Both the position numbers and the translations under genes were made by a program. DNA of 64,000 nt from Geminicoccus roseus DSM 18922 (GTDB lineage Bacteria > Pseudomonadota > Alphaproteobacteria > Geminicoccales > Geminicoccaceae). Where the stretch lies: assembly GCF_000427665.1 (NCBI RefSeq), contig NZ_KE386572.1:1698196-1762195 (forward strand). The letters run 5' to 3'. Positions 6,852-64,000 of this stretch are shown here, in pieces (position 1 is the stretch's first letter; every line of letters begins with the position of its first letter). The notes under the pieces were generated by a model that did no database searches, had not been told where the DNA came from, and saw only the letters and a list, made by a program, of their open reading frames with translations.

Positions 6852-7448
6852 ATGCAGCGTCTGTTGCGTACAACCATCATGAGCCTGCCGGCTCTGCTGC
6901 TGGCGGCCCCTGTGCTCGCCGCGGTGGAGGCCGTCGAGACGCACGAGAAGGCCGGGCTGCCGCAGCTCGACGCCACGACGTTCCCGGGCCAGATCTTCTG
7001 GCTCATCGTCAGCTTCCTGCTGCTGTTCTGGCTGTTCCGGACCAAGGCCCTGCCGCGTGTCGGCGAGGTCCTGGAATCGCGTCAGGACCGGATCGCCGCC
7101 GATCTCGACCGCGCCACCAAGCTCCGCGAGGAGGCCGAGGCTGCGCTGGTGCGCTACCAGCAGGTCGTCTCCGAGGCGCAGGGCAAGGCCAGAAGCCAGA
7201 TCGCCGCGACCCGCGAGCGCCTGGTCGCCGAGAACAGCGCCCGTCAGGCCGAGCTCGACGCGACTCTGGCCAGCAAGGTCGCCGAGGCGGAGAAGCGGAT
7301 CGAGGCGGCCCGCGAGTCGGCGCTGTCGGAACTGCATTCGGTCGCCGTCGAGGTCGCCCAGGCCGCCACGGCGCGCCTGATCGGCCGCGAGGTTCCGCGC
7401 GAGAAGGCGGAAGCCGCCCTTGCGGCGGTGGTGAAGGAGGCCGCGTGA
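6852..7448 (+). CDS. atpG: ATP synthase F0 subunit b' (second b subunit)
   Basis: A 198-residue subunit of the peripheral stator stalk. It has a signal-like or hydrophobic N-terminus (residues 8-27), a membrane anchor near residues 50-67 (IFWLIVSFLLLFWLF) and a long charged coiled coil (residues 75-180). Two b-type genes in tandem (b' then b) are characteristic of alphaproteobacteria and photosynthetic bacteria, where b and b' form a heterodimer. The stop overlaps the start of the next gene (TGATG), indicating translational coupling. Gene naming (atpG, atpF2, atpX) varies between genomes. Confidence 0.92.
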   Translation: MQRLLRTTIMSLPALLLAAPVLAAVEAVETHEKAGLPQLDATTFPGQIFWLIVSFLLLFWLFRTKALPRVGEVLESRQDRIAADLDRATKLREEAEAALVRYQQVVSEAQGKARSQIAATRERLVAENSARQAELDATLASKVAEAEKRIEAARESALSELHSVAVEVAQAATARLIGREVPREKAEAALAAVVKEAA

Positions 7449-7924
7449 TGATCGAATATTTCTGGCTTCTGATCTCGATCATCATCCTGGCGCTGGTTCT
7501 CTGGAAGCCGGTCAAGGAGCAGCTCATCGGGGCGCTGGACAAGCGCGCCGACCAGATCCGCAAGGAGCTGGACGAGGCGCAGCGCCTGCGCGAGGAGGCC
7601 CAGAGCCTGCTCGCCAAGCACCAGCGCCAGTTGCATGACGGCGAGGGCCTTGCCGCCTCGATCCTGGAGCATGGTGCCGAGGAGAATGCTCGGGTCGAGA
7701 AGCAGCTCCGCGCCGACCTGGCCGCCTCCATTGAGCGGCGCACCCGTGCCGCCGAGGAGCGGATCGGCCAGGAGGAGGCCCGGGCGGTCGCCGAGATCCG
7801 CGGCAAGGCCGCCGACCTCGCGATCCGCACCACCCGCCGGCTGATCGCCGACCAGCTGGATCCCGCCAAGGAGCAGGATCTGATCGCCTCGGCCATCCAG
7901 GACGTGCGCCAGAAGCTGGCCTGA
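7448..7924 (+). CDS. atpF: ATP synthase F0 subunit b
   Basis: A 158-residue b subunit of the stator stalk: an N-terminal membrane helix (WLLISIIILALVLW, residues ~5-18) followed by an unbroken charged coiled coil to the C-terminus (IRTTRRLIADQLDP). ATG 7448 overlaps the b' stop by one base; GTG 7445 directly before it is an alternative start. It is the last gene of the F0 operon and is followed by two strong hairpins. Confidence 0.94.
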   Translation: MIEYFWLLISIIILALVLWKPVKEQLIGALDKRADQIRKELDEAQRLREEAQSLLAKHQRQLHDGEGLAASILEHGAEENARVEKQLRADLAASIERRTRAAEERIGQEEARAVAEIRGKAADLAIRTTRRLIADQLDPAKEQDLIASAIQDVRQKLA

Positions 7925-59973: not shown

Positions 59974-60019
59974 TTCCGCACGAACCAATCATGACGATTG
60001 ACGATTGTTGGAGAGCAAG

Positions 60020-60199
60020 ATGTCGGGCGATGCCATGTCGATCAGTTCCAGGACGAAGTTCACGCGTTTCGCGATGGCGCTGGCTCTCTTGCTGAGCCTG
60101 GGCACGCTGTCGGCCTGCAACATGATCGAAGGCGCCGGCGAGGACCTTTCGCAGGGCGGCGACGCGATCGACGACGCAGCGGAGGACGCCCAGGACTGA
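60020..60199 (+). CDS. Entericidin A/B-family small lipoprotein
   Basis: A 59-residue lipoprotein with a basic N-terminus, hydrophobic core (FAMALALLLSLGTLS) and lipobox TLSAC; the mature peptide is short, acidic and ends in AIDDAAEDAQD, with the G-A-G-E-D pattern of entericidins. Entericidins are outer-membrane-associated small lipoproteins induced in stationary phase or envelope stress. ATG 60020 has GGAGAG five bases upstream; TTG 60005 in the same frame is less likely. It is preceded by an EcfG-type promoter and followed by a strong terminator, so it is a single stress-induced gene. Confidence 0.85.
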   Translation: MSGDAMSISSRTKFTRFAMALALLLSLGTLSACNMIEGAGEDLSQGGDAIDDAAEDAQD

Positions 60200-60239
60200 G
60201 CCAGCTTGGCTCGGATCCGACGCTGATCCCCACGAAATG

Positions 60240-60275
60240 AGGGGCGGCTCCCAGAGAAGGAGCCGCCCCTTTTTC
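60240..60275 (+). terminator. Intrinsic terminator of the entericidin-like gene
   Basis: A perfect 11-bp stem (GGGGCGGCTCC / GGAGCCGCCCC) with a seven-base loop is followed directly by TTTTTCTG. This is a textbook rho-independent terminator on the plus strand. Confidence 0.9.
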
Positions 60276-60297: not shown

Positions 60298-60386
60298 AAA
60301 AAGAACGGGCCGCCTGCCTGGGGGGGATGGCGGGCGGCCCGGAACTCGAGGGAGGGTTGAAACGTACCGGCATCACATCCGGTCGC
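60298..60386 (-). ncRNA. Candidate stress-induced small RNA
   Basis: About 90 nt on the minus strand with an EcfG-type promoter immediately upstream and an intrinsic terminator at the end: stem CGGGCCGCC/GGCGGCCCG (60341-60333 and 60314-60306) followed by TTCTTTTTG. The body has no protein-like frame. It carries two C-rich stretches, CCCTCCCTCG before the stem and CCCCCC in the loop, both able to pair with Shine-Dalgarno sequences. This resembles in logic the sigmaT-dependent GsrN of Caulobacter, but I cannot show homology. Confidence 0.5.
60306..60341 (-). terminator. Minus-strand intrinsic terminator of the candidate small RNA
   Basis: Nine-bp GC stem with C-rich loop followed on the minus strand by TTCTTTTTG (60305-60297). 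No U-run exists on the plus side, so its orientation is clear. Confidence 0.65.
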
Positions 60387-60392
60387 GATCGA

Positions 60393-60418
60393 AACGTCTA
60401 TACACCGCATGCGGTTCC
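60393..60418 (-). promoter_or_regulatory. EcfG-type promoter on the minus strand
   Basis: On the minus strand GGAAC (60418-60414), 17-bp spacer, CGTT (60396-60393): a full consensus match pointing into a stretch without any gene. The start would be near 60386. Confidence 0.6.
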
Positions 60419-60538: not shown

Positions 60539-60700
60539 ATGCTGTGCTGGACATTGTTGTTCTTCTTCTTTGCCCTGATCGCAGGCATCATCGGGTTCGC
60601 TGGTGTGGTTTCTGTGTCCGTGGGCATAGCGAAGATGCTGTTCTTCGTGTTTCTTCTGATGGTGGCAGCGACTTTCTGTGCCTACCTCGTCCGCGACTGA
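60539..60700 (+). CDS. DUF1328 small membrane protein
   Basis: A 53-residue protein of two transmembrane helices: LLFFFFALIAGIIGFAGV and AKMLFFVFLLMVAATFCAYLV, with the conserved G-F-x-G-V between and a short charged end. This is the DUF1328/YtjA family, usually induced by stress in alphaproteobacteria; function unknown. ATG 60539 follows GAGGG; a GTG at 60509 in frame would add ten polar residues. It lies between the stress small RNA/entericidin genes and nepR. Confidence 0.85.
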   Translation: MLCWTLLFFFFALIAGIIGFAGVVSVSVGIAKMLFFVFLLMVAATFCAYLVRD

Positions 60701-60745: not shown

Positions 60746-60770
60746 GGAACCTCCCGGAGCCTCAGCCGTT
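60746..60770 (+). promoter_or_regulatory. EcfG-type promoter of nepR-phyR
   Basis: GGAAC (60746-60750), exactly 16 bp, CGTT (60767-60770): a perfect match to the general stress consensus, giving positive feedback on the nepR-phyR operon. Confidence 0.75.
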
Positions 60771-60951
60771 GAGTTGACGGCCTGTTACGCTTGCGGGCCG
60801 TCAGCGAGGGGCCGCCTTGAGTACACGCACCGTTTCCATCAAGATGGACACGCCGCAACCGAAGCGTTGTAGGCGTGAAACCCTCGCTGGTCACAATTCA
60901 CCTGCGTGGCTGCTTTTTCCTGAGCAACTTGTGTCGAGAAGGGGCTGGGCC

Positions 60952-61173
60952 TTGTCGAGTTCGTCGAACCAGCGTCGCCCGGCGAGTAGCAAGACCTTCA
61001 CGCCCCGCGGAGGCAAGCAGCGTTCGGCGACGGAGAGCGATTACGACCGCTGGCTCGATCGCCGGCTCCATCAGCTCTATGATCCGGTCCTGAACGAGAA
61101 GATTCCCGACGAGCTCGCCAGTCTCCTGTTGCAGTTCGATGAGAAGCCCCAGGGCGACGACGACCAGAACTGA
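60952..61173 (+). CDS. nepR: NepR-family anti-sigma factor
   Basis: A 73-residue anti-sigma factor that sequesters EcfG until phosphorylated PhyR takes it away. The conserved NepR core is present: DRWLDRRLHQLYDPVLNEKIPDE (two helices, residues ~32-55) followed by LASLLLQF, with a disordered basic N-terminus. TTG 60952 is used because AAGGGG precedes it and family members are 60-75 residues long. TTG 60817 in the same frame also has an SD (GAGGGG) and would give 118 residues, but the extra segment is compositionally unlike coding sequence of this genome. It precedes phyR by 69 bp. Confidence 0.88.
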   Translation: MSSSSNQRRPASSKTFTPRGGKQRSATESDYDRWLDRRLHQLYDPVLNEKIPDELASLLLQFDEKPQGDDDQN

Positions 61174-61242
61174 GCGTGTCGTGGCTTGTCAGATTGCGCC
61201 TCGACGCGGCATCGAGGCGGGAGTTGTTCGGGGGAAGTTCAA

Positions 61243-62022
61243 ATGGCGTCCATGGCGGCGGAGATCGCCCAGTCCCTGCCTTACCTGCGTCGGTACGCGC
61301 GTGCGATCACCGGCGACCAGCGGCGTGGCGATATTCAGGTCCAACGATGTCTCGAACGGCTGCTGACCGACCGCGGCAACAGTGGTGGGCTCCCCCTGCG
61401 CACGCTCCTGTTCCGGACGCTCACGCGGAGCTGGAACGACCAGCCGGAAGCGGAGGCCATGTTCGCGGCGCCGATTGCCAACGACGCCATCCTGGATCAC
61501 CGGGTGCGTGAGATCGCGCCCGCACGCCGTCAGGCCCTGGTGCTCTCCGTCCTGGAAGGTTTCTCCACCGACGAGATCGGGCTGATCCTGGAAATCTCCC
61601 AGGCGGAAGCCGAGCAGCTCCTGGTCCTGGCGAAGAACGATCTGCGCGACCAGCGTCCGACCCGGATCATGATCATCGAGGACGAGCCGATCATCGCGCT
61701 CGACCTTGCGGGGATCTGCGAGCGCCACGGCCATCAGGTGGTCGGCTTTGCCGCCACGCGGGCCGAAGCGGTGGCCAAGGCTCGCGAGGAGAGGCCGGGG
61801 CTGATCCTGGCCGACATCCAGCTCGCCGACGACAGCTCCGGCATTGACGCAATCACCGACATCCTGGAGCACATGACGGTGCCGGTGATCTTCATCACTG
61901 CCTTTCCTCAGCGCCTCCTCACCGGTCAGCGCCCGGAACCGACCTTCCTGATCACCAAGCCATTCGACGCGGATACGCTGGCGGTGTCGATCTCCCAGGC
62001 GCTCGCGACCGCTGCGGCGTGA
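61243..62022 (+). CDS. phyR: General stress response regulator PhyR
   Basis: A 259-residue anti-anti-sigma factor. Residues ~1-135 mimic an EcfG sigma factor (ASMAAEIAQSLPYLRRYARAITG; later LSVLEGFSTDEIGLILEIS as sigma4-like helix). Residues ~140-258 form a receiver domain: acidic pair in IMIIEDEPIIALDL, phospho-acceptor aspartate in LILADIQLADD, the FxTAFP signature in VIFITAFPQR and the lysine in LITKPFD. When phosphorylated, the sigma-like part binds NepR and frees EcfG. ATG 61243 follows GGGGAAG; ATG 61252 is possible. The stop overlaps the kinase start (GTGA). Confidence 0.95.
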   Translation: MASMAAEIAQSLPYLRRYARAITGDQRRGDIQVQRCLERLLTDRGNSGGLPLRTLLFRTLTRSWNDQPEAEAMFAAPIANDAILDHRVREIAPARRQALVLSVLEGFSTDEIGLILEISQAEAEQLLVLAKNDLRDQRPTRIMIIEDEPIIALDLAGICERHGHQVVGFAATRAEAVAKAREERPGLILADIQLADDSSGIDAITDILEHMTVPVIFITAFPQRLLTGQRPEPTFLITKPFDADTLAVSISQALATAAA

Positions 62023-63773
62023 CCACCCGGCCTGGTGCGCCATCCTCCCAATTGCTGGCCCGGTGGCTTCCGGCCCGGCTGCGTGGGTTGAAGGGACGGC
62101 TGGCCCTGATCGTGGCGCTCGTGCTGCTGGTGCCGACGGCCTTCGCCGTGGCGCAGGCGATGCGGGTGCTCAAGGAGGATGAGCAGCGGCAACGGGCCAC
62201 GCTGGAGCGCACCCTGGCGCTGATCGGGGGGTACCACGATCAGGTGGCGCTGCAGGCGACCCGCCTCCTCCTCAGTCTCTCGGCGCGACCCGCCATCGTC
62301 GGTGCCGATCTGGACGCGTGCAACGAGGCGCTGAAAGTCGAAACCCAGCAGAACGCCTTGTTTCTGACCCTCAACCGTGCCGACCGAGACGGCAACGTGG
62401 TCTGCAGTTCCTGGCCGGATGCCCAGGGCATCTCCTACGCCGACCGTCGCTGGTTTCAGGAACTGGCCACGGGGACGGGTCGCATCACGTCCAGCGGCGT
62501 CCTGATCGGGCGGCACCCACTCACCGGTCCGACCCTCGTCGTGGGCGCTTCGGTTCTTGGCCCGGACGATCAGTTCCGCGGCACTCTCAGCGCCGGCCTC
62601 AGCCTGGAAGCGTTGATCGCCCTGCCGCGCTCGGTCCAGCTTCCCGCCGACGCGGTGGCGGCGGTGGTGGACCGCGACGGCGTGATCGCCACCAGCCGGG
62701 GGGATCTCGACCGGGTCGGCCTGGACGAGAAGACGGTCCGCCGGTTGCTGGAGCATCCGATGGTCCCGCAAGTCTGGGCGAGCAAGGCTGGGCGAGCCTG
62801 GCAGTTCCTCGCCCGTCCGAGCCACGTTCCCGGCATGCAGACGATGGTGGTCGCAGGCCTGCCGGTCGAACCCTGGGGCTGGCTGGATGCCCGGTTCCAG
62901 AGCGGTATCCTCCTGCCGACCTCGATCCTGTTCCTCTCGGTCTTCGTGGTGTGGGTGGCGACCGACATCCTGATCACCCGTCCCCTGCTCAAGCTGGCCA
63001 GGGCGGTCCGCCAGTGGCGCCGGGAGGGCGAGATGCCGCCTTTGATGCTGGAAGGTGCGCCCGAGGAACTGGGGGAACTGGCGCAGGCATTCGCCCGGGC
63101 CGCCAAGGAGATCCGCGAGCGCGACGAACTCCTGCAGGCCTCCCTCCAGGAGAAGGACCTCCTGCTCCGGGAGATCCACCACCGGGTCAAGAACAACCTG
63201 CAGATCGTCACCAGCCTCTTGAACCTGCGTGCCGGGTCCCTGCGCAACACCCAGGCGCAGCGGGCGATGCGCGAAGCGCAGCTCAGCATCAAGGCGCTGG
63301 CGCTCGTGCACCGCAAGCTCTACGAGCGGCCGGACCTGAAGCAGGTGTCGCTCGACGAGCTGCTGGAGGAACTCAGCTCGCTGGTCCATGACCTCTCCGC
63401 CGACCTGTCGCCCCGGGTGACCCTGACCCTGGCACTCGATCCCGTGGTGGTGGTCAGCGATCAGGCCACGCCGCTGGCCCTGTTCTGCACCGAGCTGCTG
63501 ACCAACTCCGTCAAGCATGCCTTCCCCCGCGATCGGGAAGGCTGCATCGAGGTGCGGCTGGAGCGGATCGCCGACCACCAGGTCCGCCTCACCATCTCCG
63601 ACGACGGCATCGGCACCCAGGCCAGCCGTGTCGGCCGCAACTCGGACGTAGCGGGCGGGATGGGGCTGAAGCTCGTGCAGATGTTCGCCCGCCAGATCGG
63701 CGGGGAGCTGGTCAGCGAGAGCGACGAGCGGGGAACGCGCACCTCGCTGGTGTTCACCCCCGCTACGGCGTAA
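62019..63773 (+). CDS. Membrane histidine kinase of the general stress response (HisKA_2)
   Basis: A 584-residue sensor kinase. Two membrane helices (GRLALIVALVLLVPTAFAV at ~26-44 and LLPTSILFLSVFVVWVATDIL at ~298-318) enclose a dCache-like periplasmic sensor domain (residues ~45-295). A HAMP-like linker is followed by HisKA_2 with phospho-histidine in LREIHHRVKNNLQIVTSLL and an HATPase_c domain (ELLTNSVKHAFP as N-box, ISDDGIG, GGMGLKLVQMFA). Kinases of this type (PhyK/PakF-like) phosphorylate PhyR. It starts at GTG overlapping the phyR stop, so the pair is coupled. Confidence 0.93.
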   Translation: MTTRPGAPSSQLLARWLPARLRGLKGRLALIVALVLLVPTAFAVAQAMRVLKEDEQRQRATLERTLALIGGYHDQVALQATRLLLSLSARPAIVGADLDACNEALKVETQQNALFLTLNRADRDGNVVCSSWPDAQGISYADRRWFQELATGTGRITSSGVLIGRHPLTGPTLVVGASVLGPDDQFRGTLSAGLSLEALIALPRSVQLPADAVAAVVDRDGVIATSRGDLDRVGLDEKTVRRLLEHPMVPQVWASKAGRAWQFLARPSHVPGMQTMVVAGLPVEPWGWLDARFQSGILLPTSILFLSVFVVWVATDILITRPLLKLARAVRQWRREGEMPPLMLEGAPEELGELAQAFARAAKEIRERDELLQASLQEKDLLLREIHHRVKNNLQIVTSLLNLRAGSLRNTQAQRAMREAQLSIKALALVHRKLYERPDLKQVSLDELLEELSSLVHDLSADLSPRVTLTLALDPVVVVSDQATPLALFCTELLTNSVKHAFPRDREGCIEVRLERIADHQVRLTISDDGIGTQASRVGRNSDVAGGMGLKLVQMFARQIGGELVSESDERGTRTSLVFTPATA

Positions 63774-63807: not shown

Positions 63808-63832
63808 GGAACCGGAGACGTCTCCGGCCGTT
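63808..63832 (+). promoter_or_regulatory. EcfG-type promoter of ecfG with palindromic spacer
   Basis: GGAAC (63808-63812), 16-bp spacer, CGTT (63829-63832): full consensus. The bases CCGGAGACGTCTCCGG at 63812-63827 form a perfect 16-bp palindrome that fills the spacer, so another protein may bind on top of the promoter. ecfG starts 82 bp downstream. Confidence 0.75.
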
Positions 63833-63913: not shown

Positions 63914-64000
63914 ATGTCAGTTTTCCGGCAGGATATCGTCGCGCTGTTGCCGCATCTGCGGGCATTCGCACGAAGCTTGACCTCCGGTAATAGTGCTCTC
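63914..64000 (+). CDS. ecfG: EcfG general stress sigma factor, N-terminal 29 residues
   Basis: The gene runs off the window. The visible residues (MSVFRQDIVALLPHLRAFAR then SLTSGNSAL) match the start of region 2 of EcfG/SigT proteins, where helix 1 reads L-x-x-L-P-H-L-R-A-F-A-R-S-L. Its position after nepR, phyR and the kinase, and a perfect EcfG promoter upstream, support the call. PhyR's own N-terminus (SLPYLRRYARAITG) mirrors this segment, as expected for sigma mimicry. The identification rests on a short stretch but the context is strong. Confidence 0.85.
   Translation, partial: MSVFRQDIVALLPHLRAFARSLTSGNSAL

Follow-up and report, generated by a model that had tools for sequence, protein, structure and literature searches.

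The spacer beside nepR and phyR of Geminicoccus roseus DSM 18922 raised the question of whether the general stress response (GSR) locus of this bacterium also encodes a small RNA (sRNA). A sequence-only reading of the stretch analyzed here (the window, 64,000 nucleotides of a 5.7 Mb genome that is in five contigs and 99% complete) had placed such an element amid the stress genes of the nepR-phyR locus, and a complete GSR locus was indeed found around it. All its genes lie on the plus strand: nepR (60817..61173; PF18557 at 30.3 bits against a cut-off of 25.7, though below the NCBIfam threshold for NepR), phyR (61228..62022; PF22029, PF22233 and PF00072, with NF006623 at 310.6 bits against a cut-off of 240), a gene of a sensor histidine kinase of the HisKA_2/HWE type (62019..63773; PF07568, PF07536) and the start of an ECF sigma factor gene, probably ecfG (63914..64000), which continues past the window end and is complete in L081 (110-739). 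The ECF sigma protein scored above the cut-off of TIGR02937 (sigma70-ECF) and none of the EcfG-specific models reached its own cut-off with it; the name ecfG was given because of the place of the gene in the locus, as only the general ECF model was passed. EcfG-type promoters precede nepR (60746..60770, plus) and the ECF sigma gene (63808..63832, plus).

The putative sRNA gene lies 0.4 kb from nepR and 3.5 kb from the ECF sigma gene. Its neighbors are a convergent gene for an entericidin-type lipoprotein (60005..60199, plus; PF08085 at 23.8 bits against a cut-off of 23.3) and a divergent DUF1328 gene (60539..60700, plus; PF07043 at 33.7 bits against a cut-off of 27), and the spacer has these two flanks in all three Geminicoccus species. 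The stretch had been called geneless, and the minus strand does lack a gene there, the next one downstream being the convergent entericidin gene.

The full EcfG consensus claimed for the minus strand (GGAAC-N17-CGTT) was matched exactly at 60418-60393 (promoter 60393..60418, minus), with the −35 box GGAAC at 60418-60414, a spacer of 17 nt and the −10 box CGTT at 60396-60393. With spacers of 16-18 nt, three EcfG sites occur in the window against 0.86 expected; two of them (60746 and 63808) precede nepR and the ECF sigma gene, and the third faces the opposite way, into the spacer. Because at least three sites were reached in 9 of 100 shuffles, the promoter motif taken alone is weak evidence. With a spacer of 16/17, the whole genome of the window has 91 sites, and the backwards pattern occurs 44 times; in the G. 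flavidas genome the counts are 77 and 37. Chance would thus account for about half or so of the genomic EcfG consensus sites. Both boxes are retained in G. flavidas and G. harenae, which keep GGAAC, TGTATAGACGTTTC and the RNA, with a promoter spacer of 16 nt as against 17 nt in the window. As judged from the sequences, the support beyond chance comes from conservation and not from the promoter motif.

What would be transcribed from this promoter is a predicted RNA of ~89 nt (60298..60386, minus), supported by the conserved block and the fold, its start being put ~7 nt past the −10 box. The predicted fold of the 89-nt RNA has a free energy of −38.1 kcal/mol (z −3.8), and the z values across the three species are −3.8, −4.9 and −5.1. 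The RNA would begin with a 5′ hairpin, GCGACCGG...CCGGUaCGU (60362..60386, minus), whose five core pairs are invariant in the three species. An unpaired core follows, UUUC-AACC-CUCCCU (UUUCAACCCUCCCU; 60349..60362, minus), identical in all three species and collinear with RF00519; it equals the alphaR8 10-mer UUUCCUCCCU split by AACC. The C-rich single-stranded segment described earlier (CCCUCCCUC) falls at 60356-60348, in or at this predicted unpaired core. The motif appeared on shuffled linkers in 16 of 100,000 cases, a count made after the motif had been seen.

The intrinsic terminator with a 9-bp stem, also proposed for the minus strand, was recovered with three additional inner pairs and an end at 60298. 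Its hairpin (60306..60341, minus) has a C-rich loop and 11 of 13 pairs invariant in the three species; the stem is followed by TTCTTTTT, and the U-tail UUCUUUUU (60298..60305, minus) keeps UUCUUU in all three. The loop had been described as C6: the C-rich run is there, but in the window it is C7 (60326-60320), the loop being 10 nt long and the run numbering seven C in the window and in G. harenae and six in G. flavidas. Among the 22 pairs compared across the three species, 18 are invariant, two are altered on one side and two are missing from the window species. Across these 22 pairs no compensatory (two-sided) change was found, three sequences being too few for covariation.

The conserved block comprises 105 bases that are 88% identical in G. 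flavidas (E 1.7e-29), and G. harenae carries a near copy of the G. flavidas block. In the three-way alignment, segments of 40 columns within the RNA showed 88-90% identity to the window species, and the two overhanging its ends 80% and 70%. The upstream spacer gave 30-53%, the downstream one 11-65%, highest at the entericidin terminator, and the DUF1328 gene 55-75%, below the sRNA. In the same segments the identity between G. flavidas and G. harenae was 0.55-1.00; as these two are close to each other, they count for hardly more than a single independent comparison. Under a binomial model, 92 identical bases of 105 have an estimated probability of 4e-16 if the background is 0.5 and of 3e-6 if it is 0.68. 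The earlier proposal had asked, as a test, whether close relatives conserve the promoter and the stem; both were kept in both other Geminicoccus species available.

This pattern bears on two readings without an sRNA. A chance EcfG-like site could lie beside the terminator of another transcript, or beside a hairpin that blocks transcription, with no functional RNA involved; in its favor, the genome has many copies of the promoter motif and the RNA is limited to one genus. However, the promoter is conserved jointly with the hairpin, the core and the terminator, above the level of the DUF1328 gene, and a separate terminator (60239-60271) serves the entericidin gene, so we consider this coincidence very improbable. 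That the block is a small-protein gene is hardly credible. An ATG CCG GT... frame would, in each of the three species, begin the peptide MPVRFNPPS, with the first nine residues identical, but no Shine-Dalgarno sequence was seen by eye before the ATG. The protein-coding reading was rejected, as one-base indels (window versus G. flavidas, and G. flavidas versus G. harenae) shift the rest into different frames.

We conclude from the sequence comparison that the small RNA gene is real, apparently undescribed, and found so far in Geminicoccus only; it is probably under EcfG control. The candidate had been put forward as a possible undescribed general-stress sRNA, and this description was supported: the block of promoter, RNA and terminator is conserved in place, and the Rfam scan of the window returned no family at its gathering score. 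Nothing linking Geminicoccus with a small RNA was found in the open-access literature searched.

The suggested model search of related genomes succeeded in part. Among the 31 Geminicoccales genomes, which also make up the family set, R1, a model built from this sRNA, detected the gene in two, both of one genus. In 385 genomes of the class, R1 gave two matches besides the window (both at E 8.7e-4). The first follows groEL and the second sits at another terminator; the single strand that was scanned showed no EcfG-like site, and both were judged to be unrelated terminators. The exact 18-base core occurred in four contigs of the genome collection, from which records very close to the genome of the window were possibly left out. 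Two of the contigs are from Geminicoccus; the other two, from a Parabacteroides bin and from a region beside lspA in a proteobacterial bin, were dismissed as unrelated. DNA matches in other genomes of the family were short, and the one inspected (L003) proved to be an ABC-transporter region. L036 represents the closest genus that shares this gene order, and no such RNA was found in its corresponding spacer.

A weaker R1 relative was noted in G. flavidas (L084/L097; 27 bits, E 0.044). The L097 element (1480-1583, minus, contig C751) has the same build, with a 5′ hairpin, GUUUCAAC, a pyrimidine run and a terminator (z −7.8), and its terminator loop CCAUCCCCCCC is the same as in the Geminicoccus sRNA. 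No EcfG consensus was seen in the 250 bases before it.

How does this RNA compare with those already known from the same regulon? According to PMC5869019, sigma-T directly activates GsrN, an RNA of ~100 nt that pairs with the katG mRNA and exposes a C-rich loop at its 5′ end. Taking an EcfG site and nearness to the GSR locus as criteria, the same paper predicts GsrN-like RNAs in Rhizobiaceae, Brucella, Bradyrhizobium and Rhodopseudomonas, and it reports BLASTn hits of GsrN in Caulobacteraceae only. ReC64 of Rhizobium etli (PMC3892343) is an EcfG1-dependent RNA of the ecfG1-phyR region with a promoter consensus and a mapped start, and 23 sRNAs of S. meliloti with a predicted RpoE2 promoter are mentioned in PMC3616915. 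The sequence-only reading had held that sigmaT-dependent GsrN is known in Caulobacter and that none was known to be encoded here. The undescribed status stood, but the kind is better known than claimed, given ReC64 and the predicted GsrN-like RNAs.

The Geminicoccus RNA resembles GsrN (PMC5869019) in its EcfG-type promoter, its size (~90 versus ~100 nt), its exposed, unpaired C-rich segments and its place in the GSR locus, GsrN-like RNAs typically lying near ecfG, nepR or phyR. A true ortholog, sharing descent, C-rich pairing and a role in peroxide survival through katG, is nonetheless unlikely in our view. No PF00141 peroxidase (the katG family) was found in the window genome, 99% complete as it is, whereas the control search found one in Caulobacter vibrioides; as no such peroxidase was found, the GsrN target katG cannot serve here. 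Compared by description and not by sequence, GsrN has its loop at the 5′ end, and the Geminicoccus RNA has its core behind a 5′ hairpin; this core looks closer to alphaR8/MmgR than to the published account of GsrN. ReC64, again by description and not by sequence, differs in sitting 3′ of phyR-tcrY. In kind, the sRNA would be an EcfG-controlled RNA of a GSR locus like GsrN and ReC64, and its unusual point is the alphaR8-like core.

The likeness to alphaR8 (MmgR, SisA-D; RF00519) consists of a hairpin, an unpaired UUUC...CUCCCU core and a Rho-independent terminator in the same order. PMC12559287 describes the Caulobacter RNAs SisA-D as alphaR8 RNAs with a terminator and the unpaired 10-mer UUUCCUCCCU 3′ of a weak hairpin, through which they repress. 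In a sensitive Rfam scan of 136 bases of the window, RF00519 (suhB/MmgR) scored 21.3 bits (E 0.012) and did not reach its gathering score of 41; the G. flavidas sequence scored 16.5 bits (E 0.27). The match is collinear over the 5′ hairpin, CGUUUC, CUCCCU and the GGGCCGC terminator. The 6C family (RF01066; gathering score 47) gave 29.4 bits (E 0.015) in the window and 27.5 bits (E 0.045) in G. flavidas, outscoring RF00519 in bits because of the C-rich loop or loops, and CcsR1 (RF02791; gathering score 65.3) gave 15.2 bits in G. flavidas. C-rich unpaired motifs are common to CcsR1, 6C and the sRNA, and both matches are weak and far below the gathering scores.

The comparison was also made in the reverse direction. 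RF00519 scored above its cut-off in 163 of the 385 class genomes, and 30 over-cut-off loci among those listed (L099-L128) served as the sample. R1 marked the alphaR8 site in 17 of these 30 (10/20 and 7/10; L126 via a tandem copy), with weak E values of 0.016-0.68. A decoy model, R2, which shares the terminator and the hairpin core of R1 and carries its linker reversed, marked it in 3 of the 30, with the caveats that one of its outer pairs is at columns 49-86 and not 50-85 and that its linker still contains CTCCCT. R2 has 18 pairs versus 22 in R1, as the reversed linker loses the outer pairs of hairpin 1. Among 10 of the 19 sub-threshold Geminicoccales loci, R1 marked one (L135) and R2 none. 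Off-target matches in the 40 loci numbered three for R1 (L100, L121, L122) and five for R2 (L100, L117, L121, L129, L140). The difference between R1 and the decoy suggests that the likeness to alphaR8 rests on the linker, but the likeness is weak.

The RNA might then be a true, diverged member of alphaR8 that came under EcfG control after a duplication. The collinear build, with its RF00519 match at E 0.012, and the linker-dependent reciprocal matches speak for this, as does the free variation of promoters among alphaR8 siblings described in PMC12559287. Against it, the 10-mer is broken by AACC and the scores stay below the cut-off; for the split 10-mer the sRNA was not filed as alphaR8. Two better RF00519 matches lie elsewhere in the window genome (33.4 and 32.5 bits, also below the cut-off), so that the Geminicoccus sRNA is at best a diverged sibling. 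Convergence on an anti-Shine-Dalgarno motif is possible as well. The sRNA further differs from canonical alphaR8 copies, which usually adjoin an FGase gene (PMC12559287), in not lying beside one, and from MmgR, listed with RpoD and RpoN promoters in the review PMC7143759, in having an EcfG promoter. In the open-access literature searched, nothing linked alphaR8 with EcfG, and mmgR and RpoE2 were met together only in that review. We rate membership as conceivable but rather unlikely; by analogy, the sRNA probably works like an alphaR8 RNA.

Other alphaR8-like elements were noted in these genomes. L132 and L139 (window genome), L130 and L140 (G. flavidas), and L134 and L138 (family) have a variant core, CCUCCCUGAUC(U/C)AC(U/T), followed by a GGCCGG terminator; these elements occur in more than one copy per genome and score below the RF00519 cut-off. 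L129, L131, L133 and L135 have GGCGUUUCCUCCC and then a terminator, score below the Rfam cut-off and are probably the canonical alphaR8 RNAs of Geminicoccales. An EcfG consensus lies 5′ of L135; none was seen at its G. flavidas counterpart, L133.

Which messages might such a core reach? Perfect 9-mer complements (GAGGGAGGG) before start codons showed no excess over the reversed pattern (5 versus 5 and 7 versus 7). In ranking sampled gene starts for predicted pairing with the core, phyR came 3rd of 193 in G. flavidas, 5th of 193 in G. harenae and 13th of 220 in the window genome; the starts were taken from samples by a home-made gene finder, the G. flavidas sample also serving for G. harenae. 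Earlier ranks of phyR over ATGs were 3/306, 3/204 and 27/1657. The pairing predicted in G. flavidas and G. harenae spans the G-run and the start codon region. With shuffled linkers, too, phyR took a rather high place (median 14-21%, best 5% at 2-4%); the phyR pairing beats this best 5% in the two relatives only. Pairs have been lost in the window species. The alphaR8 core equals the sRNA's own core for phyR pairing in G. harenae (5/193). We treat phyR as a possible target suggested by predicted pairing, a lead and not a finding. A scheme in which the stress sigma factor drives an RNA descended from, or convergent on, the alphaR8 blockers, which masks the phyR start so that the response limits itself at translation, appears doubtful to us. 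The best-pairing leaders in the samples appear, by eye, to include sugar-uptake genes.

The reading that we favor, and hold to be fairly likely, is a gene for a trans-acting sRNA of the general stress response, driven by EcfG, ~89 nt long and endowed with a split alphaR8-type core that masks Shine-Dalgarno regions. As the conserved promoter suggests, RNA polymerase with EcfG would start near 60386 on the minus strand, and the conserved terminator would stop transcription to give the ~89-nt RNA. The pyrimidine core would most likely pair with purine-rich Shine-Dalgarno regions as alphaR8 RNAs do, Hfq would bind at the U-tail and probably aid the pairing, and translation of selected mRNAs would be lowered during stress.

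The RNA would extend the EcfG-controlled locus RNAs to Geminicoccales, beyond Caulobacteraceae, Rhizobiaceae, Brucella and (as predicted) Bradyrhizobium and Rhodopseudomonas. It touches two stories, that of the nepR-phyR stress RNAs, recognized less by sequence than by place and promoter, and that of alphaR8, a widespread group of anti-Shine-Dalgarno RNAs. Should the core derive from alphaR8, putting a translation blocker under the stress sigma factor may be one way for stress RNAs specific to a lineage to emerge.

Units of an EcfG site plus a terminator were sought at 13 PhyR loci (L035-L046, L048), and besides the Geminicoccus RNA the sole compact intergenic unit accepted was in L037 (genome G009). 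It lies on the minus strand upstream of nepR, in the same orientation as that gene, with an exact EcfG consensus at 7477, a terminator within 60 nt and an end near 7410; this unit could be a second, unrelated stress-locus RNA. The EcfG consensus was also seen upstream of DUF1328 genes at L036 (4931) and L038 (11193), and with one mismatch at L044 (8789), L035 (6921) and L048 (511). An EcfG-like site thus lies 5′ of DUF1328 in five of the six loci where DUF1328 was found, and DUF1328 is probably a gene of the stress regulon.
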